Assembly (NCBI GenBank): GCA_029974035.1
Contig: JARKQG010000120.1
Coordinates: 1 to 24,861 of the forward strand
Direction: 5' to 3'
Length of the DNA: 24,861 nucleotides
DNA from: Eubacteriales bacterium
GTDB lineage: Bacteria; Bacillota_A; Clostridia; Christensenellales; Aristaeellaceae
Shown here: in pieces, positions 1,759 through 24,715 of the stretch
Layout: each line of letters starts with the position of its first letter
Position numbering within the stretch: position 1 is the first letter of the stretch
Notes under the pieces: generated by a model
What the model was told of the DNA's origin: nothing
Databases searched by the model: none
Seen by the model: the letters and a program-made list of their open reading frames with translations, nothing else
Made by a program: the position numbers and the translations under genes

Positions 1759-3336
1759 ATGACGAGCCATTCCCCCGGCCTTTTTACCGATGTGATCGGC
1801 CCGGTGATGCGCGGCCCCTCCAGTTCCCACGTGGCGGCGGCACACCGGATCGGCAGCATCGTGCGGCAGTCGCTCGCGGACGCACCCGCGGGCGCGGTGG
1901 TGGACTTTGACACCGCCGGGTCCCTCGCCAAAACCCATCGGGGTCACGGAACGGACTTTGGCTTTGCCGGCGGTCTGCTGGGCATCCCGCTGACGGACCC
2001 CCGGGTGGCGGACGCCTGCGCCGTCGCGGCGCGGGACGGCGTGGACATCCGCTTCCGGGTGCTGGACTACGGCGCGGCGCACCCCAGCCACTATCGGATC
2101 GAGGCCCGGGACGGCCGGGGCGCGATCCGCCGCTGGGACGCGGTGTCCACCGGCGGCGGCATGATCGAAATGCTCCGGCTGAACGGCCATCCGGTATCCG
2201 TCAACGGCGCCTTTTACGAGGTACTGGCCTTTCTGCCGGAGGGCCCGGCGCGGGCCCGCGCCGCGGCCCTCCTGAGCGGCGAGATCGCGTCGGCGGACGC
2301 GGCGCTCGTCCAGATCCGTCTTTTTGGCCCGCCGTCGGCCGGGGCGCTGGAGTCGGTCCGCCGCCTCCCCGGCGCGGCCGACGTGATCGTCCTTTCGCCG
2401 GTGCTGCCCGCGCCCACGGCGCCGGGGGCCCGCGTGCCCTTTGACACCGCCGAGGCGCTCCTCGCCTACGCCCGGACGGCGGGCCGCCCGCTCTCCGGCT
2501 GCGCGCTGGCCTACGAAAGCGCCCGGAGCGGCCTGACGGAGGATGCCGTCCGCGAGAAGATGGCCGAGCTGGTGGGCATCATGCGCGGCGGAATCCGCCG
2601 GGGCCTCCGGGGGACCGATTGGGCCGACCGCATTCTGGGCCCTCAGGCCACCCTCTACGAGGCGGGCAGGAGCGCCGGCGCACTGGCGCCGCTGGGCGCA
2701 CTGGACACCGTGATTCCCTACATCACCGCCCTGATGGAGGCCAAGAGCGCCCTGGAGGTGATCGTGGCCGCGCCCACGGTGGGCGCCTGCGGCTGCCTGC
2801 CCGGCACGGTGCTGGGCGTGGCCGACGCGGCGAATCTGACGGACGGGGATGCGGTGCGCGGCATGCTGGCGGCGGGCGCGGTGGGCGTTTTGATCGCGGC
2901 GGGGGCGACTTTTTCCGCCGAGATCGCCGGCTGTCAGGCCGAGTGCGGCGCGGGCTCCTCAATGGCGGCCGCCGGCGTGGCGGAAATGCTGGGCGCGGGC
3001 GCAAAGACCTGTCTGGACGCCGCGTCCATCGCGCTGCAGAACATCACCGGCCTCGCCTGCGATCCGGTGGCCGACCGCACGGAGGTGCCCTGCCTGGGCA
3101 AGAACGTGATGGGCGGCGCCAACGCGCTGGCCAGCGCCAACATGGCGCTGGCGGGCTATGACCGGGTGATCCCGCTGGACGAAACCATCCGCGCCATGGC
3201 CCGGACGGGCGAACTGATGCCGCCGCAGCTGCGCTGCACGCTGGGCGGGCTGGGCGACACCCCCACGGCCCGCGCCATTTACCGGCGGCTGAACGGAACC
3301 GATCAAGAAGGAGGCGCATCCGATGCGAACCCATGA
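1759..3336 (+). CDS. L-serine dehydratase (iron-sulfur), fused beta and alpha domains
   Basis: This 525-residue protein resembles [4Fe-4S] L-serine ammonia-lyase, which converts L-serine to pyruvate and ammonia. The beta domain begins near residue 5 with DVIGPVMRGPSSSHVAAAHR. A segment at about 150-220 (starting YEVLAFLPEG and ending at DVIVLSPV) looks like an ACT fold. The alpha domain occupies about 320-520. Cluster cysteines are Cys392 (AGCQAEC), Cys434 (GLACDP) and Cys445 (VPCLGK); the spacing of 42 and 11 matches the ligand spacing known for the Legionella enzyme. The protein is longer than the usual 450-460 residue fused form, which the ACT-like segment would explain. The start is ATG 1759 with GGGAGG upstream, and the 3' end overlaps the next gene by 14 bases. 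Given its neighbours, a different beta-hydroxy amino acid could be the substrate. Confidence 0.85.
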   Translation: MTSHSPGLFTDVIGPVMRGPSSSHVAAAHRIGSIVRQSLADAPAGAVVDFDTAGSLAKTHRGHGTDFGFAGGLLGIPLTDPRVADACAVAARDGVDIRFRVLDYGAAHPSHYRIEARDGRGAIRRWDAVSTGGGMIEMLRLNGHPVSVNGAFYEVLAFLPEGPARARAAALLSGEIASADAALVQIRLFGPPSAGALESVRRLPGAADVIVLSPVLPAPTAPGARVPFDTAEALLAYARTAGRPLSGCALAYESARSGLTEDAVREKMAELVGIMRGGIRRGLRGTDWADRILGPQATLYEAGRSAGALAPLGALDTVIPYITALMEAKSALEVIVAAPTVGACGCLPGTVLGVADAANLTDGDAVRGMLAAGAVGVLIAAGATFSAEIAGCQAECGAGSSMAAAGVAEMLGAGAKTCLDAASIALQNITGLACDPVADRTEVPCLGKNVMGGANALASANMALAGYDRVIPLDETIRAMARTGELMPPQLRCTLGGLGDTPTARAIYRRLNGTDQEGGASDANP

Positions 3337-4816
3337 AGAATATATAGCCCTCGCCCGCACGGTGTCCGGCCCCACGGGCGCGTTCATTGACGGGGCGTTT
3401 TCGCCCTCCGCCTCGGGCGATACGTTTGTGACTGTGAACCCCGCCAACGGTGCCCCCATCGCGGAGGTGGCGCTCTGCGCCGAGGCGGACGTCAACCGCG
3501 CCGTGGCGGCCGCGCGCCGCGCCTTTGAGGACGGGCGCTGGCGCAAAATGCATCCGGCGGAGCGCAAGGCGCGGCTCTGCCGCCTCGCGGAGCTGATCGA
3601 GGCCTGCGGCGACGAGCTGGCGGTGCTGGAATCCATGGACAGCGGCAAGCCCATCCGCGACACCGCGGGGCTGGATGTGCCCGAAACCGCCGCCTGCTTT
3701 CGCTGGCACGGCGAGGCCGCGGACAAGCTGGAGGACGCGGTGACCGCCACCGGCCCCGACGTGGTCAGCCTGACGGTGCGGGAACCCATCGGCGTGGTGG
3801 CGGCGGTGCTGCCGTGGAATTTTCCGCTGCAGATGGCCGCCTGGAAGCTGGCGCCCATTCTGGCCACGGGCAACAGCGTGGTGGCCAAGCCCGCGAAGCT
3901 GACGTCGCTGACGCTGCTGAAGCTCGCGGCGCTGACCCTCGAAGCCGGCATTCCGGAGGGCGTGGTGAACGTGGTGCCCGGGGACGGGCGCGTGGTGGGA
4001 TCGACGCTGGCGCTGCACCCGGACGTGGACATGATCACCTTCACCGGCTCCACGGAGGTGGGCCGGCAGCTGCTGGCGCAGTCGGGCGCGTCCAATCTGA
4101 AGCGGGTGCTGCTGGAACTGGGCGGAAAAAATCCCTGTGTGGTCATGCCGGACGTGGCGGACCTTTCCACCGCCGCGGAGCAGATCGTCTCCGCCGCCCT
4201 TTGGAACATGGGCGAAAACTGCACCGCCAATTCCAGGATTCTGGCGCACCGGGACATCAAGGACAGGCTCCTGGAGGCGCTTCTGGCCGAGGTGGCGCGC
4301 TGGAAGGCGGGCGATCCGCTGAACCCGGAGAACCGCCACGGCGCGATGATCGAGGAAAGGCACCTGAAAAGGGTGCTGGGTTACGTCAAAACCGGCGTGG
4401 AGGAGGGGGCGGGGCTGGTCTACGGCGGGCACCGCATCCTCGAGGAGACCGGCGGATTCTTTATGAAGCCCGCGGTGTTTGACGATGTGACGAGCGAAAT
4501 GACCCTCTATCGGGAGGAGATCTTCGGGCCGGTCTTCGGCGTCAGCACCTTTGACACGCCGGAGGAGGCCATCCAAATGGCCAACGACACGCCCTACGGC
4601 CTGCAGGCCAGCGTATGGTCCGGCGATGTGAACGCCGTGCACCGGCTGAGCCGCGGCATCCGCGCGGGCACCATATCGGTCAACTGCTATTCGGAGGGCG
4701 ACATCGGCACCCCCTTTGGCGGGTTCAAGCAGTCGGGTTTCTTCGGCCGCGACAAGTCCCTGTGGGCCAACCGGCAGTACACCGAGCTCAAGACCATCTG
4801 GACGCAGATCCGCTGA
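3323..4816 (+). CDS. NAD(P)-dependent aldehyde dehydrogenase
   Basis: This 497-residue protein has standard length for the aldehyde dehydrogenase superfamily, cytosolic enzymes that oxidise aldehydes to carboxylates. Motifs in order: PWNFPLQMAAWKLAPIL (Asn near the oxyanion hole), VAKPAKLT (cofactor binding), FTGSTEVG (Rossmann turn), LELGGKNP with general base Glu265, GENCTANSR with catalytic Cys300, and EEIFGPVF near the C-terminus. The start ATG 3323 lies inside the end of the serine dehydratase gene and has a strong AAGGAGG at about 3307-3313, implying translational coupling. It most resembles the betaine-aldehyde or gamma-aminobutyraldehyde type, but such assignments are weak. As last gene of the operon it probably oxidises an aldehyde produced by the DapA-family enzyme, for example glyceraldehyde or 2-oxoglutarate semialdehyde (inference). 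Confidence 0.92.
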   Translation: MRTHEEYIALARTVSGPTGAFIDGAFSPSASGDTFVTVNPANGAPIAEVALCAEADVNRAVAAARRAFEDGRWRKMHPAERKARLCRLAELIEACGDELAVLESMDSGKPIRDTAGLDVPETAACFRWHGEAADKLEDAVTATGPDVVSLTVREPIGVVAAVLPWNFPLQMAAWKLAPILATGNSVVAKPAKLTSLTLLKLAALTLEAGIPEGVVNVVPGDGRVVGSTLALHPDVDMITFTGSTEVGRQLLAQSGASNLKRVLLELGGKNPCVVMPDVADLSTAAEQIVSAALWNMGENCTANSRILAHRDIKDRLLEALLAEVARWKAGDPLNPENRHGAMIEERHLKRVLGYVKTGVEEGAGLVYGGHRILEETGGFFMKPAVFDDVTSEMTLYREEIFGPVFGVSTFDTPEEAIQMANDTPYGLQASVWSGDVNAVHRLSRGIRAGTISVNCYSEGDIGTPFGGFKQSGFFGRDKSLWANRQYTELKTIWTQIR

Positions 4817-16216: not shown

Positions 16217-16279
16217 TTGCGGATGTCGCACCCCTCGCCCGTCCGATCTTCGGCGGATCCGCCCAAAGGAGGCTTCGAG

Positions 16280-17167
16280 GTGGAGGCATGGCTTATCAAC
16301 GTTCAGCGCTTCAGCACCCGGGACGGCCCGGGCATTCGCACCACGGCGTTTTTCCAGGGGTGCAACCTCCGCTGCGCGTGGTGCCACAACCCGGAATCCG
16401 TCTCGGCCCGCCCCGCTCTGCAGTACTATGCGGACAAGTGCGCGCTGTGCGGCCTTTGCGCGGCCGCGTGCCGGCGGGGCGCCCACGCGATGGAGAGCGG
16501 GGCGCACCGGTTTGACCCCACCCGGTGCGCCTACTGCGGCGAGTGCGCGCTTTGCTGCCCGACCGGGGCGATCCGGTGCGATGCGAAGCGCTTTACGCCC
16601 GAGGCCCTCGCGGCGCTCCTGTCGCGGGACATCGCCTTCTACCAAAACAGCGGAGGCGGCGTGACGGTCTCCGGCGGGGAGCCGATGCTTCAGGCCAGGT
16701 TTGTCCGGGCGCTGTTCGCGCTTATGAAGCAAAAGGGCGTCCACACGGCGGTGGACACCGCCGCCTACGCCCCTTGGGACGCCTTTGAGGAAGTGCTGCC
16801 GGTCACCGACCTCTTTCTCGTGGATCTCAAGGCCGCCGATCCCCTGATCCACCGGCGCTTCACCGGCGCGGACAACGCGCCGATCCTCCGGAACATCGAG
16901 GCGCTGAGCGCGCGCGGCGCGGCGCTGGAGGTCCGGATGCCGCTGGTCCGCGGCGTAAACGACTCGGACGACTGCGCGCGGCAGGCGGCCGGCTTTCTCG
17001 GCGGCCTTGCCGCCGTTCCCCCCGTCCGGCTGCTCCCCTACCACAACTACGGCCTTTACAAGGCCCAGAGCGTCCGGATGGACATGCGCGAATTCCAGCC
17101 GCCCGAATCCCCGGAGGCGTTCGCCGGGATTCTCCGGGCGCATCACATCCAGGTGGAGGTGTCCTGA
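16280..17167 (+). CDS. Glycyl radical enzyme activase (radical SAM, two ferredoxin-type clusters)
   Basis: This 295-residue activating enzyme uses S-adenosylmethionine and a [4Fe-4S] cluster to abstract hydrogen from the glycine of its partner enzyme. From the GTG start the radical SAM cysteines are Cys28, Cys32 and Cys35 (GCNLRCAWCHNPES). An inserted ferredoxin-like domain supplies Cys54/57/60/64 and Cys83/86/89/93 (CAYCGEC...CCP). SGGEPML follows as the SAM-binding GGE motif. This two-extra-cluster form is typical of activases for glycerol/choline/hydroxyproline-type GREs, not of PflA, which lacks the insert. GTG 16280 is chosen because AAAGGAGG lies 8 bases upstream and the protein then begins at the conserved N-x-Q-R-F-S-T-R-D-G-P-G block; the frame is open further to a TTG at 16217. 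The GRE gene starts one base after its stop. Confidence 0.93.
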   Translation: MEAWLINVQRFSTRDGPGIRTTAFFQGCNLRCAWCHNPESVSARPALQYYADKCALCGLCAAACRRGAHAMESGAHRFDPTRCAYCGECALCCPTGAIRCDAKRFTPEALAALLSRDIAFYQNSGGGVTVSGGEPMLQARFVRALFALMKQKGVHTAVDTAAYAPWDAFEEVLPVTDLFLVDLKAADPLIHRRFTGADNAPILRNIEALSARGAALEVRMPLVRGVNDSDDCARQAAGFLGGLAAVPPVRLLPYHNYGLYKAQSVRMDMREFQPPESPEAFAGILRAHHIQVEVS

Positions 17168-17168
17168 C

Positions 17169-19475
17169 ATGGCAGAGAGCATCCTGTCCAAAACCCTGAC
17201 GCGCCAGTTGGAAAACTGGATGGAGAAGTCCAGCGACCACACCTTCTGCGAGCGCATTTCGCTGCTCATGAAGAGCGAGACAATCTTCCGGGACGAACCC
17301 TACGCCGTCCGCTACGGCGACACGCTGGGCTACATCCTAGACAGGATCAGCGTACCGATTGACGGCGACGAAATGCTGCTGGGCCGGGTGGCGGAGCGCA
17401 TCCCCACACCGGAAGAGCGAAAGGCCGCCCTGGACGCCTACGCCGCCTGGTGGGACGATAAGTCTCTCGACCAGATCCAGGAGGACATCCTGTGGTTTTA
17501 CTCAAAGGCCTGGCTCCGGTGCCGGCCGCCGTGGTTTTATTCCTTCGGCCACTTGGCGCTGGATTGGGAGCTTCTGATGCGGGAGGGCATCGAGGGCTTT
17601 GAGCGCCTAGCGGAGCGGCGCCTGGCTGAAGGCACGGACGAGCGCGGGCGGCGCTTTCTCGAGGGCGCGCGCCTGTGCCATCGGGCCGTGTCCCGGTACA
17701 TCGCCCGCTATGCCGGCGTTGCGGCCACCGCGGGCCGGGCCGACGCCGACAGCCTTCGGCACATCCGCCGCGGCGCGCCGCGCACATTTCACGAAGCGCT
17801 GCAGCTGATCTGGCTGATGACCCTGGTCGCTCAAAAGGTCTGCGGCTGCGGCGTGCTCAACTTCAGCCGCATGGATCAGTACCTGCTGCCCTTCTACCGC
17901 AGGGACATCATGGTCGGCACGCTCACCCCGACCTCGGCGCGGGCGCTGGTTCAGGAATTCTTCTTCAAGAACAACGAAATCATGGCCAACACCGACCACA
18001 TGAGCCTCGACACCGAATCCACGACCGGCACGCTGGAGGTGGCCTTTGACGACCCCAACTACATCATCCTGGCGGGCCTTTTGCCCGACGGCCGCTCCGG
18101 CGTCAACGAGCTGACGGAGCTGATGGTGCAGGCAGCCCACGACCTGAAGCTGAAAAACCCCTTCGTGGTGGTGCGCTGGCACCGGGGGATCGATGGAACC
18201 TTCTTTGAGTCGGTCGCGGCCGCGATGCGCGACAACGCCACCATGGTCGTCTACAGCGACGAGGTGATGCTTCCCGCGCTGCGCCGGTGCGGCGTGGAGG
18301 AGCCGGAGCTCTACGACTACGGCTTTTTCGGCTGCAACGACCCGATCATCCCGGCGGAGGAGGGCGGCCTGAGGCAATTGTGGCTGAACCTCGTCAAGCC
18401 GCTGGAACTGGCGCTCAACGAGGGCGACTATCCGATGGCGCCCGGCGGTACCAACCGGGGCCTCTACGTGTTCCCGCTGGAGGACCGGCTGACCGGCCTG
18501 ATGACCGGCGCATACTACGGCGTCAAGACGCCGCCCCTGCGGCACATGGAGCGCATGGAGGATGTGCTCCAGGCCTACCGGGCGCAGCTGCGCTTTCTGA
18601 TGCACAGCTACCGCCAGGGCATCGAGCGCGACATGGAGCTGGAAAAGCGCGTCAACGCCGGACGGCTGCGCTTTGAGGACTGCTTCCTCCCGGGGACGCT
18701 CAAAAACGCCGTCACCTGGAACAACGGCGGCACCAAGTACCACTATATCGTCGTCCAGGGGTCGGGCATTGCCACGGCGGCGGACGCGCTGTACGCCATC
18801 GACCGCCTGGTCTTCCGGGAAAAGGCGCTCACCCTCGAGCAGCTCAACGACATCCTGAAGTCCGACTGGGCGGGACACGAGGCGCTGCGCCAGCGCGTGC
18901 TGCACCTGCCCAAGTTCGGAAACGACGTGGACGAGGCGGACCGCTACGCCGCCTTTGTCAGCGAGGCCTTTGCCGACGCGGTGGCGGAGGAGGACGGGGG
19001 GCGCTACCTATACGGCTTTTTGCCCACGCTGTCCAGTGACCGCGATTTTACGACGATGGGGCTTTATGTCGGCGCCACCGCGGACGGGCGGCACGCGCGC
19101 GCACCCATCAGCGAAAACCAGTCCCCCGCCGAGGGCGCGGACCTCTCCGGCCTCACGGCACTGCTCAACTCCGCCTCCAAAATCCGCTTTGACCGCATCA
19201 CCGGCGGCCCGCTGAATTTGCGGCTGCACCCCAGCGCTGTCGGCGGCGCAAACGGCGCGCGGCTGCTGGCGGCGCTGCTCGGGACCTATTTTGAAAACGG
19301 CGGGCTGCAGATCCAGATGAACGTAGTGGACAGCGAAACGCTGCGCCAGGCCCAGCGCGAACCCGAGAAATTCCGTGGCCTTTGCATCCGCGTGACGGGC
19401 TACAGCGCGTTCTTCACCCAGATGGGTCGGCGCGCGCAGGACGAGCTGATCCGCCGCACCGAGCAGGCGCCGTAG
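17169..19475 (+). CDS. Glycyl radical enzyme of unknown substrate, variant Cys-x-Asp active site
   Basis: This 768-residue protein has the length of pyruvate formate-lyase and glycerol/choline/hydroxyproline-type GREs. The C-terminal radical motif RVTGYSAFF holds Gly744, 24 residues from the end. The active-site loop reads YGFFGCNDPIIPAEEGG, placing thiyl Cys389 and Asp391 where characterised eliminating GREs have Cys-x-Glu; the following proline is kept. Other family marks are TFHEALQLIWL, SRMDQYLLPFY and DGRSGVNELTELM. The start ATG 17169 has GGAGGTG 7-8 bases upstream. No microcompartment genes or acyl-CoA-linked genes sit nearby, so it is not obviously a Pfl, GrpI-diol or choline-lyase locus. 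Divergence from a sugar importer suggests a radical dehydratase or C-C/C-O lyase acting on a carbohydrate-derived substrate (inference). Confidence 0.92.
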   Translation: MAESILSKTLTRQLENWMEKSSDHTFCERISLLMKSETIFRDEPYAVRYGDTLGYILDRISVPIDGDEMLLGRVAERIPTPEERKAALDAYAAWWDDKSLDQIQEDILWFYSKAWLRCRPPWFYSFGHLALDWELLMREGIEGFERLAERRLAEGTDERGRRFLEGARLCHRAVSRYIARYAGVAATAGRADADSLRHIRRGAPRTFHEALQLIWLMTLVAQKVCGCGVLNFSRMDQYLLPFYRRDIMVGTLTPTSARALVQEFFFKNNEIMANTDHMSLDTESTTGTLEVAFDDPNYIILAGLLPDGRSGVNELTELMVQAAHDLKLKNPFVVVRWHRGIDGTFFESVAAAMRDNATMVVYSDEVMLPALRRCGVEEPELYDYGFFGCNDPIIPAEEGGLRQLWLNLVKPLELALNEGDYPMAPGGTNRGLYVFPLEDRLTGLMTGAYYGVKTPPLRHMERMEDVLQAYRAQLRFLMHSYRQGIERDMELEKRVNAGRLRFEDCFLPGTLKNAVTWNNGGTKYHYIVVQGSGIATAADALYAIDRLVFREKALTLEQLNDILKSDWAGHEALRQRVLHLPKFGNDVDEADRYAAFVSEAFADAVAEEDGGRYLYGFLPTLSSDRDFTTMGLYVGATADGRHARAPISENQSPAEGADLSGLTALLNSASKIRFDRITGGPLNLRLHPSAVGGANGARLLAALLGTYFENGGLQIQMNVVDSETLRQAQREPEKFRGLCIRVTGYSAFFTQMGRRAQDELIRRTEQAP

Positions 19476-19488
19476 CGCGCCCCGGGGG

Positions 19489-20946
19489 TCAGGCCGGGCC
19501 CGGCGCGGCGTCCGGCACGCGGAGCGTGACCACGGTGCCCCGGCCCGGCGCGCTCTCCACCGACACGTGGCCCATGCCGTAGGTCAGCCGCATCCGCTGC
19601 AGCACGTTTTCAAGGCCGATGCCGCCCCGGGCGCCCGCCTCCCGGGGCGCCAGCACCTCGCGCAGCCGCTCCGGGCTCATGCCCGCGCCGTTGTCCCGCA
19701 CCACCACGACCAGCGCCCCGTCCTCGATCCCGGCCGAAACCTCGATGCGGTCGCCCGCCTTGGGCTTGGGAAAGCCGTGCTGGACGGCGTTTTCGATCAG
19801 CGGCTGCACCACCATGCGCGGAATGGGCCGGAGCATCGCGTCCGGATCGACGCGGCAGGAATAGCCCAGGCGGTCGCCAAAGCGCGTCTTCTGGATGGCC
19901 ACATAGTCCTCCGCCACGCCCAGCTCCTCCGAAAGCGGCGCGAACTGGGCGCGGTCGTTGAGCGAGTAGCGCAAAATGCCCGCCAGCCGGGAAACCATCG
20001 CGCCCGCGCGGGGCGCGTTTTCCATTTCGGCCAGCGCGCCGATGGAATTGAGCGTGTTGAACAGAAAGTGCGGGTTCATCTGCATGCGCAGCATGTCCAG
20101 CTCCGCGCTCTTGAGCAGGCTCTTCGTTTCCAGGTTGTCCACCTGCTGGCGGCTCAGCTCGCGCTCCACCTCGCGCTTTTCGATGGTCTCGGCCACCAGC
20201 ACATTGTAGCTGTCCACCAATTCGCCCACCTCGCGAAGCGACGTGCGCCCGGAGGACGCGGCGACATCTTCGCCGGTTCTGGTAAAGTGGCGCATGCGGC
20301 TGACCAGCGTCTTGATGGGCCTGGACACGCCGCGAACCACCCACGCCGCGGCGAGCAGGCACGCGGCGGCCGTCAGCCCCATGAGCAGGTTGCCCCGCCG
20401 CGCGATGGAATCCAGCCGCGCGGAAAACTGATCGTAGGTGCCCTTGGCCTCGACGGTCAGCGCCTCGCTGGCGGCGCGGATCTCGCCCTCGATGTAGCCC
20501 TTGAGCCGCTGCAGGTACCGCTCGTAGACGGTCAGGTAGAGCGTGTAATCGGTGGAGAGGTTTGCCACCAGCTCGCGGTAGGTTTCGTCGAAGGTGGTGA
20601 TCATGTTGCCGATGTCGATGATCCGGTAGCGCATGTCCCCCTCGACGCGCCCCTTCACAAGCGCGAGCCCGGCGCGGGCGCGGGCGAGCGCGGTTTCATA
20701 GTTCCGTTCAAAGGCGGCGCGCTGGTCCGCCCGCCCGTTGCGAAGACTCCAGGCGGCCATGTACATGCCGTCCACGTCGTCCTTGACCTCGATCATGCGG
20801 ATCAGGAGCGAATACTCGCTGGCAAAGTCCACGTAAAAGGTCTGATAGTCCCGCCGGGACCAGAAGCCGCTGGTGGTCATCACCGCGATGATCGCCAGAA
20901 AGCACAAAAAGAGCACCACCCAGATGGGGACGCGGTGTCGGGCCAT
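19489..20946 (-). CDS. YesM/LytS-type membrane sensor histidine kinase
   Basis: This 485-residue sensor kinase has TM1 at about 7-24, an extracytoplasmic largely helical sensor at 25-185, TM2 at about 186-207 and a HAMP-like linker (SRPIKTLVSRMRHFTR). The His_kinase (PF06580) block holds phospho-acceptor His293 in MNPHFLFNTLNSIGALAEME. The ATPase domain has PLIENAVQHG (N box), VRDNGAGMS (G1) and GIGLENVLQRMRLTYG (G2). ATG 20946 is preferred over the open frame extending to 21240 because of ATAGGAGG upstream and because the membrane anchor begins there. It is the last gene of its operon, 10 bases after the response regulator, its obvious partner. The stop lies 13 bases from the convergent GRE stop. 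Confidence 0.93.
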   Translation of the reverse strand: MARHRVPIWVVLFLCFLAIIAVMTTSGFWSRRDYQTFYVDFASEYSLLIRMIEVKDDVDGMYMAAWSLRNGRADQRAAFERNYETALARARAGLALVKGRVEGDMRYRIIDIGNMITTFDETYRELVANLSTDYTLYLTVYERYLQRLKGYIEGEIRAASEALTVEAKGTYDQFSARLDSIARRGNLLMGLTAAACLLAAAWVVRGVSRPIKTLVSRMRHFTRTGEDVAASSGRTSLREVGELVDSYNVLVAETIEKREVERELSRQQVDNLETKSLLKSAELDMLRMQMNPHFLFNTLNSIGALAEMENAPRAGAMVSRLAGILRYSLNDRAQFAPLSEELGVAEDYVAIQKTRFGDRLGYSCRVDPDAMLRPIPRMVVQPLIENAVQHGFPKPKAGDRIEVSAGIEDGALVVVVRDNGAGMSPERLREVLAPREAGARGGIGLENVLQRMRLTYGMGHVSVESAPGRGTVVTLRVPDAAPGPA

Positions 20947-20956
20947 AGAGCGCCTC

Positions 20957-22060
20957 CTATCGCGCGCGGAAATCGTGGGGCGACACGCCGTAGTACCGGG
21001 CGAAGAGCTTGCGGAAGTAGGCGGGGTCGGCGTAGCCGCACCGGCGGGATACCTCGCCGGGGGACAGCCGGGTTTCCGCAAGAAGCCGCCGCGCCAGCCG
21101 CATCCGCCGCCGGGTGATGTACTCGATGAAGTTGACGCCCACCCGATCCTTGAAGCTGGCCGAAAGGTGCTGGGGCGATACGCCCAGCTCCAGCGCGAGG
21201 CTCTCCAGCGACAGCGACGCCAGCTGGTCGTCCCGGACAAAGCGGTCGATGTTGTCCAGCAGGTTCAGGCCCTTGTCGTCCTCGCCCCGGGCCATCAGAA
21301 GCCGGGCCAGCCGGCCCCACGCCGGCGCCCATTCGCCGCCATCCACCGGAAGCACGCGCCGGGGCGCGCCGGAAAAGCCCGCCTCGTGGCAGGCGTCGCC
21401 AAAGCGCTTTTCCCAGGCCGCCAGGCCGTCCGCCGGCGAAACCAGCGCCGTAAACAGCCCCTCCAGCGCGCCGGTAAACACATACCCCATGCTGGGCGCG
21501 CGCTTTTTCAGAAGATACCCCAGGCGGCTCAGCCGCTCCTCGCCCCCGCCCGGGCAGGCGGCGGCCATGATCAGCCCCTCGTCGAGGCGGCCGTAGTAGC
21601 GGCGGATCTGCGCGCGGGTGGCCTCGCCGAGTTCCCTGGACGTCAGAAGCGCCAGCACCTGCTGGTCGGCAAAGGCCTCGGCGGCGGATATGCTGGCGTG
21701 GAACAATCGGGAGATCTTCTCCACCGCCTCCTCGCGGCGGACCGGCTTGAGCAAATAGCCCTTCACGCCGATGTCCAACGCCTCGGACACCAGCGAAAAG
21801 GAATCATAGGCCGAGCAGATCAAAATCGACGCCATCGGGTAGGCGGCGAGAATCCGGCGCGACGCCTCCAGCCCGCTGATGCCCGGAATGCGGATGTCCA
21901 TCAGCACGCCGTCCGGCCGGTAGCGGGCATACTTCTCCACGGCCTCCTCGCCGGTTTCCGCCTCGGCGACCACCGTCACGTCGGAAAAATTCCGGGAGAG
22001 CAGCGTACTCAGCGCGAAGCGGGACAGCTCCTCATCATCCACCAACAGGACCGTGGGCAT
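20957..22060 (-). CDS. YesN-type response regulator with AraC DNA-binding domain
   Basis: This 367-residue protein has a receiver domain at 1-120 with acidic pocket Asp8-Asp9, phospho-acceptor Asp55 (LMDIRIPG), Ser83 and Lys105 (LLKPV). A middle helical region of about 140 residues resembles the variable linker of YesN proteins. The C-terminal AraC domain (about 268-367) has two helix-turn-helix units, LALELGVSPQHLSASFKDRVG and VSRRCGYADPAYFRKLFARYYG, ending PHDFRAR. The start ATG follows AAAGGAGG. It is cotranscribed between the degenerate kinase-like gene and the histidine kinase. AraC-type regulators bind direct repeats, so the repeats at 16033-16073 are natural target candidates (inference). 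Confidence 0.94.
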   Translation of the reverse strand: MPTVLLVDDEELSRFALSTLLSRNFSDVTVVAEAETGEEAVEKYARYRPDGVLMDIRIPGISGLEASRRILAAYPMASILICSAYDSFSLVSEALDIGVKGYLLKPVRREEAVEKISRLFHASISAAEAFADQQVLALLTSRELGEATRAQIRRYYGRLDEGLIMAAACPGGGEERLSRLGYLLKKRAPSMGYVFTGALEGLFTALVSPADGLAAWEKRFGDACHEAGFSGAPRRVLPVDGGEWAPAWGRLARLLMARGEDDKGLNLLDNIDRFVRDDQLASLSLESLALELGVSPQHLSASFKDRVGVNFIEYITRRRMRLARRLLAETRLSPGEVSRRCGYADPAYFRKLFARYYGVSPHDFRAR

Positions 22061-22079
22061 GGTTCCTCCTTTCGCCGCG

Positions 22080-22529
22080 CTACAGCGTCCATTGGCGCAC
22101 AAAGTCCGCGCCTTCGCAGACCCCGGTTTTGCGCACGGCCATGCGCAGCCGGTAGCCCAGCGCCATGTCCTGGCGGATCTGCACCTCGATCTCGTACTCG
22201 CAGGCCGGGTCCCGGAGCATTTCATCCGGCGCGCAGGCCGCCTCCGCGGCGTTTACAAGCGCCATGCGCGGCACAAAAAGGGCCGCGCACGGCATCGGCC
22301 CTAGGTGAATGCGGTTGCCGAAGCGGCCCTTGCGGATCTCGATCAGATCCTTCAGGGCCGCCCATTCGTCCGCAAGCGGAACCCAATCGCGGCACAGCGC
22401 CGCGTGGCGGACCAGGCGCTGCATGGAAGCCAGCAGGCGCGCGGTCCCCTGTGCGCCCTCAATGTCCGCCAGCTGGCTGGCCTGGGTCAGGTAATCGCAG
22501 ATCTTTCCCGGCAGGTCGTCCCGCTCCAT
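22080..22529 (-). CDS. Small degenerate histidine-kinase-core protein (pseudokinase-like)
   Basis: This 149-residue soluble protein, without signal or membrane segment, aligns by eye to the core of the YesM-type kinase in the same operon (kinase residues from about 290). LPGKICDYL pairs with NPHFLFNTL, so the phospho-acceptor His becomes Gly8. A gapless stretch continues through LADIEGAQ opposite LAEMENAP. WVPLADEWAALKDLIEIRKGRFGNRI pairs with the FAPLSEEL-to-RFGDRL block, and VPRM with IPRM. The N box ENAVQHG is replaced by NAAEAAC, and the G1 motif RDNGAG by RKTGVC, where the protein soon ends. ATP binding and autophosphorylation should therefore be lost. Start ATG 22529 has GGGAGG 6 bases upstream and intact spacing (12 bases from URO-D, 19 to the regulator), so it looks like a maintained gene rather than decay. 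Role unknown; modulation of the adjacent kinase or regulator is my inference. Confidence 0.8.
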   Translation of the reverse strand: MERDDLPGKICDYLTQASQLADIEGAQGTARLLASMQRLVRHAALCRDWVPLADEWAALKDLIEIRKGRFGNRIHLGPMPCAALFVPRMALVNAAEAACAPDEMLRDPACEYEIEVQIRQDMALGYRLRMAVRKTGVCEGADFVRQWTL

Positions 22530-22541
22530 GCACGCCTCCCG

Positions 22542-23723
22542 TCAGCGGTAGACGCCGTACTCCTGAAGCGCCTCCCACATGGCCATGTAATTCTCCGGCG
22601 GCACGTCGCTCTGCACGTTGTGCACGGTGGAAAAGACGAAGCCGCCGCCGGGGGCCAGATCGTCAATGCGGCGCCGGACTTCGTCCTTCACTTCCCGCGG
22701 CGTACCGCAGGGCAGCACGTGCTGGGTGTCCACGCCGCCGCCCCAGAAGGTGAAGCGGCTGCCCAGCTCCCGCTTGAGGCGGGCGCTGTCCATATCCTTG
22801 GCGCTGACCTGCACCGGGTTCAGGATGTTGACGCCCTCCTCGCAGAGCATATCCGCAAAGGGCAGCATGCTGCCGCAGGTGTGGTAGAAGATGTAGATCT
22901 CCGGCGCGCCGTTTTTGCGCGCCCTGTCGCGGATGAAGCCGAAGAGTTCCTTGTGGTAGGGCGACACCATCTCCCGGTAGAGGCCGGGCGACACCAATTG
23001 GCTGTTCTGGGTGGCCAGGTCGTCCGCCTCGGAGACGATCAGCACGTTTTCGCCCACCTCGTCCAGCGCCTTTTCCCAGTAGGCCAGCTTGTAGTCGGTG
23101 ATCTTGCGCATCAGCGCGTGGCTGAATTCCTTTTCGGCCATCATGTCGCAGAAGAACTTCTCAAATCCGCTGGTCCACAGCGCCAGCTCCCAGATGCCTG
23201 CGTTGTGGCGGCCCAGGATGTAGGCGCGCTTTTCCCCGTTCACGTAGTTGTCCGCCCGCGCCTTCATGCCGGCAAAACGCGAAGGATCGTCCCCGGCAGG
23301 CATGTGGTAGGCGTCAAGGTCCTCGATGGTTTCGGCGTCCTGCAGCGGGTGGCTGACCATGTCGAAGTAATGGCCGCCGTCCACCGGCATGCGCCAGCCG
23401 ATGCCCAGCTCGTCGGTCATCAGCACGTATTTGCCGTCCGGAGACAGGCGCGGCTCGGAGCGCATCGGCGCCACGGCGATGGGGTTGGGGTCCACGCCGC
23501 GCACGTCCACCTTCAGAAGGTTCACCACGTCGTCGTCAATGCGCGCCAGTTGCTGGGTCATATCCTGGATGTCGATTTCGACCTCCGCGAGGCCCAGAAA
23601 CTTTCTGAGCGCGCGGTAGGCGGATACGTTCATGCCCGTCAGAACGCACGCGCCCAGGTCGAAGGGAATCCTGTCCGGCTCCTTGTGCCGGAGCGCCGTC
23701 AGAACGCGCTCGTAGCTCGTCAT
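22542..23723 (-). CDS. URO-D-fold protein, probable MtaA/CmuA-like methyltransferase
   Basis: This 393-residue protein has the uroporphyrinogen decarboxylase fold, beginning MTSYERVLTALRHKEPDRIPFD. A zinc site like that of corrinoid:coenzyme methyltransferases is visible: His281 and Cys283 (FYHTCGSM) and Cys339 (HVLPCGTP). HemE lacks this site and is shorter, so haem synthesis is unlikely. The start ATG 23723 follows GGGAGGG; the ATG 33 bases further upstream lacks support. No corrinoid-binding protein is encoded in the window. Many such stand-alone URO-D proteins occur near sugar ABC transporters in Clostridia without known function. It lies between a permease and the two-component genes, 29 bases after the permease stop. 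Confidence 0.85.
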   Translation of the reverse strand: MTSYERVLTALRHKEPDRIPFDLGACVLTGMNVSAYRALRKFLGLAEVEIDIQDMTQQLARIDDDVVNLLKVDVRGVDPNPIAVAPMRSEPRLSPDGKYVLMTDELGIGWRMPVDGGHYFDMVSHPLQDAETIEDLDAYHMPAGDDPSRFAGMKARADNYVNGEKRAYILGRHNAGIWELALWTSGFEKFFCDMMAEKEFSHALMRKITDYKLAYWEKALDEVGENVLIVSEADDLATQNSQLVSPGLYREMVSPYHKELFGFIRDRARKNGAPEIYIFYHTCGSMLPFADMLCEEGVNILNPVQVSAKDMDSARLKRELGSRFTFWGGGVDTQHVLPCGTPREVKDEVRRRIDDLAPGGGFVFSTVHNVQSDVPPENYMAMWEALQEYGVYR

Positions 23724-23752
23724 TGATATCCCTCCCGATAAAGATTCCCCGC

Positions 23753-24715
23753 TCAACCGGCTTTTTCCTGCCTGATCTTGCCGGCGCGGTCAATGAGCAC
23801 CGCCGCCATCAGCGTAAAGCCCGTGACGAAGGTCTGCCAGTAGACGCTGACGTTGAGAAGCGTCATGGCGTTGGAGATCAGCGCCATCAGGATGCAGCCC
23901 AGGAAGGCGCCCACCACGGTGCCCTCGCCGCCGCTCATGGACGCGCCGCCGATGATGACCGCGGTGATGACCTTCAGCTCCAGCCCCACGCCCGCGGTGG
24001 TGGAGGCCGAGCCCAGCCGCGCCGTCAGGATGATGCCGGCAAACGCCGCCAGAAGGCCCATGATCACGTAGTTGACAATCTGCATCCGCTCGGCGTGGAT
24101 GCCGGAGAGCTTCGCCGCCTTGAAGTTGCCGCCGATATAATAGTTCTGGCGGAAAAAGCGGCTGCGGCGCAGCAGGAAATCGCCGATGATCACCAGAATC
24201 AGCATGTAGATCACCGGCATCTGCACCGGGCCCAGCTTGGCCTGGCCGATCCAGGTGAAGCTTTCGGGCAGGTTTGAGATATTTTTGCCGTTCATGAACA
24301 CCAGCACCAGGCCGCGGCCCATGCTCTGGGAGGCCAGGGTGGTGACGAAGGGCGTGATGCCCAGCCTGGCGATGGCGAAGCCGTTGAAAAGGCCCACCAG
24401 CGCGCCGGTGACGATGCCGCCCACCACGCCAAGCCACACCGGCACGCCGGACTTCATCAAAAGCGCCGCGATGCCGCCCGAGAGCGCCACGATGGAGCCC
24501 ACCGACATGTCAAACCCGCCGCTGACCATCAGGCTGACCATGCCGACCACCATGATGGCCTCCATGGAAAGGCTCAAAAGCACCGCCAGCAGGTTGGCGC
24601 CGGAGAAAAAATAGGGCGAGGCAAAACACATCGCCGCGAACATCACCACCACCACGCCCATTAGCACCAGTTCGCGCGCGTTTTTCATCCGGCTGGTAAG
24701 GTTCTTGAGATTCAA
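23753..24715 (-). CDS. RbsC-type ABC transporter permease, apparently without its own ATPase nearby
   Basis: This 320-residue multi-pass permease is of the BPD_transp_2 family: MVSGGFDMSVGSIVALSGG in the first third and VIIGGASMSGGEGTVVG in the last. Start choice is uncertain. TTG 24715 has GAGGAA 7 bases upstream and gives the longer normal N-terminus; ATG 24688 gives MKNARELV but lacks a ribosome binding site. It is followed by the URO-D gene and the sensor genes on the same strand. Upstream, a divergent gene seems to begin at 24775, so this permease may lead the operon, with no ATPase or binding protein beside it. It may borrow the ATPase encoded at 13367-14905 or one outside the window. 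Confidence 0.9.
   Translation of the reverse strand: MNLKNLTSRMKNARELVLMGVVVVMFAAMCFASPYFFSGANLLAVLLSLSMEAIMVVGMVSLMVSGGFDMSVGSIVALSGGIAALLMKSGVPVWLGVVGGIVTGALVGLFNGFAIARLGITPFVTTLASQSMGRGLVLVFMNGKNISNLPESFTWIGQAKLGPVQMPVIYMLILVIIGDFLLRRSRFFRQNYYIGGNFKAAKLSGIHAERMQIVNYVIMGLLAAFAGIILTARLGSASTTAGVGLELKVITAVIIGGASMSGGEGTVVGAFLGCILMALISNAMTLLNVSVYWQTFVTGFTLMAAVLIDRAGKIRQEKAG

Follow-up and report, generated by a model that had tools for sequence, protein, structure and literature searches.

The 149-residue protein encoded at 22080..22529 on the minus strand of the window, by which we mean the whole stretch of 24,861 nucleotides analysed here, is a stand-alone pseudo-histidine-kinase core, referred to below as PH, and its status as a maintained third component of a YesM/YesN-type pair is well supported. 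Sequence comparison relates PH to the DHp-CA core of kinases of the LytS/YesM type. Our preferred reading, which we hold to be about as probable as all others taken together, is that PH is a dedicated dead histidine-kinase core that joins a YesM/YesN-type pair, encoded next to a sugar transporter, as a third component and docks on the receiver domain of the response regulator. Pseudo-histidine-kinases are already known; the minimal, His-less and regulator-paired form is what appears to be new here.

Results

Gene layout in the window

On the minus strand, the genes follow one another in the order permease, UroD-like protein, PH, regulator and kinase. The ABC sugar permease (BPD_transp_2; 23753..24715, minus strand) and the UroD/MtaA-like protein (22542..23756, minus strand) were recognized from profiles and relatives; the latter is the upstream neighbour of PH, and this linkage is frequent, not constant. 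PH itself is an ATG-start open reading frame, identified by its PF06580 match, its family and its structure model. A likely ribosome binding site, GGGAGG (22535..22540, minus strand), is found 6-11 bases ahead of its ATG, the stop codon of the UroD-like gene lies 12 bases before the PH start, and 19 bases separate the end of PH from the ATG of the regulator gene, which is preceded by AGGAGG (22065-22070, minus strand); the first-pass annotation had credited PH with its own ribosome binding site and tight spacing, and this is borne out. The identities that it had given to the two partners agree with their Pfam domains: the open reading frame at 20957..22060 (minus strand) encodes a YesN-type response regulator of 367 amino acids, with REC and AraC HTH domains and an intact VLMDIRIP phospho-Asp motif, and that at 19489..20946 (minus strand) encodes a YesM-type histidine kinase of 485 amino acids, with PF06580 and HATPase_c domains and intact NPHF, ENAVQHG and DNGAG motifs.

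Relationship of PH to histidine kinases

The window PH matches the Pfam family PF06580 with E=7.7e-5 and 23.3 bits, just below the 25.2-bit gathering score, and BLASTP aligns it to the neighbouring kinase with 26% identity over 69 amino acids (E=5e-7). PF06580 was matched by 25 of the 30 PH members at E<=0.01, with no other Pfam family found, while NCBIfam gave one weak, unrelated match on PH members. A profile search devoid of kinase similarity had been named beforehand as an outcome that would speak against the kinase-core assignment; what was obtained are PF06580 matches. In the predicted models of two distant PH members, a DHp hairpin is followed by a stripped, CA-type ATP-binding domain, and the closest structure is the GanS kinase domain, in line with the fold anticipated from the window alone. 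In the window, the model and the conservation place the DHp-like helical hairpin at codons 6-43 (helices 6-24 and 26-43; 22401..22514, minus strand), and the model and the alignment place the CA domain remnant, which lacks the N-box Asn and the G1 Asp, at codons 46-149 (22083..22394, minus strand). The sensor part is missing, as only 7 residues precede the His position in the window frame. The description of PH as aligning almost without gaps to the kinase stands up to about residue 96 and fails beyond it, where the CA part is shorter; the difference in length indicates that PH lacks some 45 residues of the kinase ATP-binding part. Taken together, the profiles, the models and the residue losses described below support the initial view of a stand-alone pseudo-histidine-kinase core beside a YesM/YesN-type pair.

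In a tree of 42 rows, 29 PH sequences and 13 kinases fall on opposite sides of one branch (95/98, 80 columns), and with the H motif removed (81 columns from residue 17 on) the PH/kinase branch has values of 94/92 and is not starred, both trees having few columns, long branches and a small kinase sample. A single origin of the PH family is favoured by these sequence data. The 29 PH rows include one identical pair and exclude P0026 (a fragment), P0001 and the PH proteins of loci L069 and L070. The 13 kinases were found or cut via an N[PQ]HF match, so that their His is partly there by construction; none of those read lacked it. At one further locus, L071, a YesM-type kinase is spread over two overlapping frames (2706-4258) and is perhaps broken.

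Loss of catalytic residues

None of the 29 aligned PH proteins has His in the phospho-acceptor column, which reads Glu in 17, Gly in five, Asp in four, Gln in two and Ser in one. The Gly8 noted earlier at this place (codon 8, 22506..22508, minus strand, from the alignment to kinases) is thus correct for the window PH, the family majority being Glu. Outside the 29 rows, reading by eye gives Glu for L069 and Ser for L070 at this position. At His+4, Asn is found in 0/29 PH proteins versus 13/13 kinases, PH reading Glu in 15, Leu in eight, Ser in three, Asp in two and Gln in one. The N-box Asn is kept in 0/29 and the G1 Asp in 1/29, these two columns being weakly aligned in the distant PH members. 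For the window PH, the alignment agrees with the reported G1 change from RDNGAG to RKTGVC; the N-box register first given was off by three residues since, once the alignment is anchored on VPRM/IPRM, it is EAACAPD and not NAAEAAC that faces ENAVQHG. A His at +8 occurs in only 9 of the 29. PH has residues of its own near the lost His, namely Ala at +9 (29/29 PH versus 1/13 kinases; Thr in L070, by eye) and Gln or Glu at +11 (29/29 versus 2/13). From these missing residues we infer that PH is catalytically dead as a kinase.

A short protein family under selection

A single-sequence search with PH returned 15 homologues at E<=1, all of 148-149 amino acids and 65-99% identical to the query; P0001 is 99% identical to the window PH, and the identity among 14 window-clade relatives is 65-80%. 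The first profile search gave 16 relatives, and adding the Spirochaetia members to the profile raised the number to 26 (E<=1, 5.8 billion proteins, 7,998 candidates scored). Of these, 25 have 145-156 residues and one is a 116-residue fragment (P0026), in a protein search that considers lengths of 0.55-1.75 times the query only, full kinases lying outside this range and being covered by the genome searches. At least two members, P0017 and P0019, carry the label 'histidine kinase' in public records, which the residues compared here do not support. In the genome_contigs and viral_contigs collections no confirmed PH-family locus was found with short patterns that fit the window clade only.

The pair L031 and L032 yields a dN/dS of 0.15 for PH, close to the 0.145 of the regulator, and of 0.068 for UroD; in more distant pairs the PH value is 0.22-0.36, at synonymous distances above 1. 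The DHp-like hairpin is the best conserved part of the protein, the conservation of residues 1-76 versus 77-149 being 0.78 versus 0.61 in the window clade and 0.79 versus 0.47 in six Spirochaetia members. The claim that PH is a maintained stand-alone protein is upheld by this family of near-constant length, by selection and by the fixed place of the gene.

Gene context across genomes

Genomes were searched with the UroD-like neighbour as an anchor and then with the PH profile itself. Outside the window, short stand-alone PH frames turned up in nine genomes (G002, G003, G781, G783, G816, G863, G1023, G1036 and G1066), all of which appear to come from the class that includes the Spirochaetaceae MAG of locus L003. 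In seven of ten genomes, the PH profile found one short frame each (166-223 amino acids, 7e-59 to 8e-34), the next match being a long frame at 2.5e-13. In a second genome set, 17 of 168 genomes had a match at E<=1e-13, of which five are short frames (153-223 amino acids) and 12 are frames of 333-653 amino acids. The best relatives are therefore short frames and full kinases score far lower, contrary to the alternative, raised at the outset, that the homologues would turn out to be full-length kinases.

In all ten loci (the window and the nine genomes), the regulator gene is immediately preceded by PH in the same orientation, the window being the one locus covered from the clade of the 16 window-type proteins (P0001-P0016). 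The search for homologues of similar length beside YesN-type regulators, proposed in the first-pass annotation, thus yielded a short family in a fixed place. The gap to the regulator gene, next to the 19 bp of the window, is 10 bp in L002, 18 in L003, 4 in L028, 25 in L029, 18 in L031 and 18 in L032, and the two genes overlap in L027 (-4 bp), L069 (-4 bp) and L070 (-11 bp); the PH start codons in L027 and L029 were chosen by us. PH is encoded with the regulator rather than with the kinase, because the kinase gene is convergent in 9/10 loci; it is codirectional in the window, and the contig of L032 holds the kinase end only. In the nine loci with a whole kinase gene, the H, N and G1 motifs are present in 9/9 kinases and the phospho-Asp motif in 9/9 regulators.

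A permease 55-61% identical to that of the window is found near PH in eight of the nine other loci and is absent from the 5.4-kb contig of L070. The pairing of PH with the regulator outlasts its other neighbours, as L069 lacks a close UroD and L070 has a xylose-isomerase-like gene, assigned by eye. This gene before PH (L070, 4373-5403) resembles the end part of a xylose isomerase and hints at a xylose-type signal. The UroD-like protein was considered as an essential partner of PH and rejected, since a close UroD is missing from L069, which has PH, and both L001 and L030 have UroD without PH; a tie of PH to short regulators (267-379 amino acids) was likewise dismissed, the regulator of L070 having 526 amino acids.

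PH is an optional part of the system because locus L030 (genome G547) has a 62% identical UroD, a 535-residue regulator and a kinase without PH, the best match to the PH profile there being a 503-residue frame. In L001 (genome G001), with a UroD of 74% identity, nothing of a two-component system is found in the 3.6 kb downstream; the UroD of the window is closest, at 74%, to a Clostridia MAG. PH was found in 3/146 genomes of the order of G002 and in 3/46 of the order of G003, the PH genomes being those with a close UroD; these frequencies are rough, as they come from even samples of larger groups, with scoring restricted in the larger ones to the top few (4-5) candidates of each genome. In the order of G001, a search with A2 matched one of 396 genomes, with a 458-residue kinase frame, and in the class of G001 no match to the regulator was found at E<=1e-40 in 391 genomes. 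The 13 loci with a UroD below 60% identity (L004-L008 and L033-L040) gave no PH match, four of them having under 3 kb downstream. In two of these, L005 and L006 (Moorella stamsii and a Clostridiales record), an alanine-dehydrogenase-like protein, as judged by eye, directly follows the 48%-identical UroD-like gene.

Discussion

Compared with the LytS/YesM kinases (PF06580 plus HATPase_c, with the solved GanS kinase domain 6swj/6swk), PH lacks the sensor, the phospho-His, the N-box Asn and the G1 Asp, along with the stretch of the CA part noted above. Relay of phosphate via a DHp histidine would thus be impossible for PH. ChpT, according to the excerpted text of its report, is a pseudo-kinase histidine phosphotransferase that passes phosphate via its His, and its interface with CtrA includes the C-terminal half of helix 1 and the N-terminal half of helix 2 (PMC9981736); PH has no His at that place in 29/29 members and only 10-15% identity to ChpT, and a ChpT-type phosphotransferase role was ruled out. 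A likeness may exist with DivL of Caulobacter, a His-less kinase core described in the cited extract as binding DivK~P via the docking face of the response regulator (PMC4211667). In both cases a kinase core without kinase action would serve as a regulator-binding module, such binding being conjectural for PH; DivL additionally carries PAS sensor domains, whereas PH consists of the bare core and is encoded with its regulator.

We favour the regulator side because PH is encoded together with the regulator and opposite to the kinase in 9/10 loci, and because DivL, as far as the excerpt describes it, offers a working precedent by analogy. PH would dock on the receiver domain and gate its phosphorylation. 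By occupying or gating the docking face, it might act as a buffer for free regulator, protect the regulator against non-cognate phosphorylation and make a higher signal level necessary for the intact kinase to turn on the target operon. A more specific version, which we put forward only tentatively, has the His-less core co-translated with the regulator and sitting on its receiver domain as a gatekeeper or decoy that only a strongly active membrane kinase displaces, an arrangement shared by the Spirochaetia-class genomes and the window lineage.

The main rival to regulator docking is a mixed dimer, in which the DHp hairpin of PH would pair with the cytoplasmic DHp of the YesM-type kinase and so lower or set the activity of the kinase, in the manner of RetS with GacS, a reading that we consider somewhat unlikely. 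The hairpin is the dimerization element of kinases as well as the best kept part of PH, and its conservation consequently cannot tell regulator docking from mixed dimers. Precedents are available in the excerpts cited here: RetS inhibits GacS with DHp-DHp contacts (PMC12148439), and heterodimers are described for FasB/FasC (PMC12675982) and ChrS/HrrS (PMC9491836). RetS, FasC and ChrS_CA-fs are kinase-like third members that pair with a kinase; as the same extracts present them, however, they comprise long sensor proteins and a frameshift mutant of laboratory origin, whereas PH has the minimal core only and a fixed place in operons. PH proteins also show a slight excess of likeness to their own kinase, but in nine loci, and with relatedness not removed, this excess is not significant (permutation p=0.057), and the co-encoding of PH with the regulator again points away from the kinase.

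Other roles can be envisaged on the regulator side or apart from both partners. DHp domains can help to dephosphorylate regulators, and PH, which keeps the hairpin and is made with its regulator, could be a DHp-type phosphatase partner that speeds the loss of regulator phosphate without a histidine of its own; this is improbable, as the varied residues at His+4 offer no common catalytic side chain. It is likewise improbable that the CA remnant has turned into a ligand-binding or scaffold part through which PH senses a cytoplasmic metabolite, such as a sugar phosphate, and informs the pair of it: an alpha/beta domain is predicted at good confidence in the two distant members and PH genes adjoin sugar transport genes, yet the remnant is the less conserved part of PH and no pocket motif is shared across the members. 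As for a decaying kinase copy or a chance frame in GC-rich DNA, the loss of catalytic residues would fit such an origin, but the constant length, the identity retained by the 14 relatives, the dN/dS of 0.15 and the fixed place in 10/10 loci make it hardly credible, and we have excluded it.

If the docking of PH on the receiver domain is right, a kinase core that was once an enzyme would now serve as a stoichiometric insulator, which would amount to a three-component type of signalling. Apart from ChpT, which retains its His, the pseudo-histidine-kinases compared here are, in the excerpts cited, mostly sensor proteins of considerable length; in the open-licence PMC literature we found no minimal, His-less, operon-fixed pseudo-histidine-kinase that serves a YesMN-type pair. 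A minimal natural pseudo-kinase of this kind, fixed beside a regulator, would demonstrate a regulatory use for a bare DHp hairpin. It would also add a third member to the YesMN-type sugar systems, for which models usually comprise two proteins, or three if a sugar-binding protein is included. In the SBP-type three-component systems (XylFII-LytS and CuaDSR), two-component sugar systems are joined by a third protein (PMC10384115); in the excerpt consulted, that protein is sugar-binding and acts on the outside part of the sensor, whereas PH is a relative of the kinase core and, by its PF06580 match and predicted DHp/CA fold, is not a solute-binding protein.

Other features of the window

On the plus strand of the window, a glycyl-radical enzyme and its activase are encoded at 16217-17167 and about 17165-19475. 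The best NCBIfam model for the glycyl-radical enzyme is PFL2-3 (359 bits, below the cut-off of 678), and RVTGYSAFF and GCNDP motifs were read by eye. Further upstream, also on the plus strand, positions 1759-3336 encode an L-serine dehydratase-like chain of 525 amino acids, in which beta-type and alpha-type parts are fused, both scoring below their NCBIfam cut-offs.
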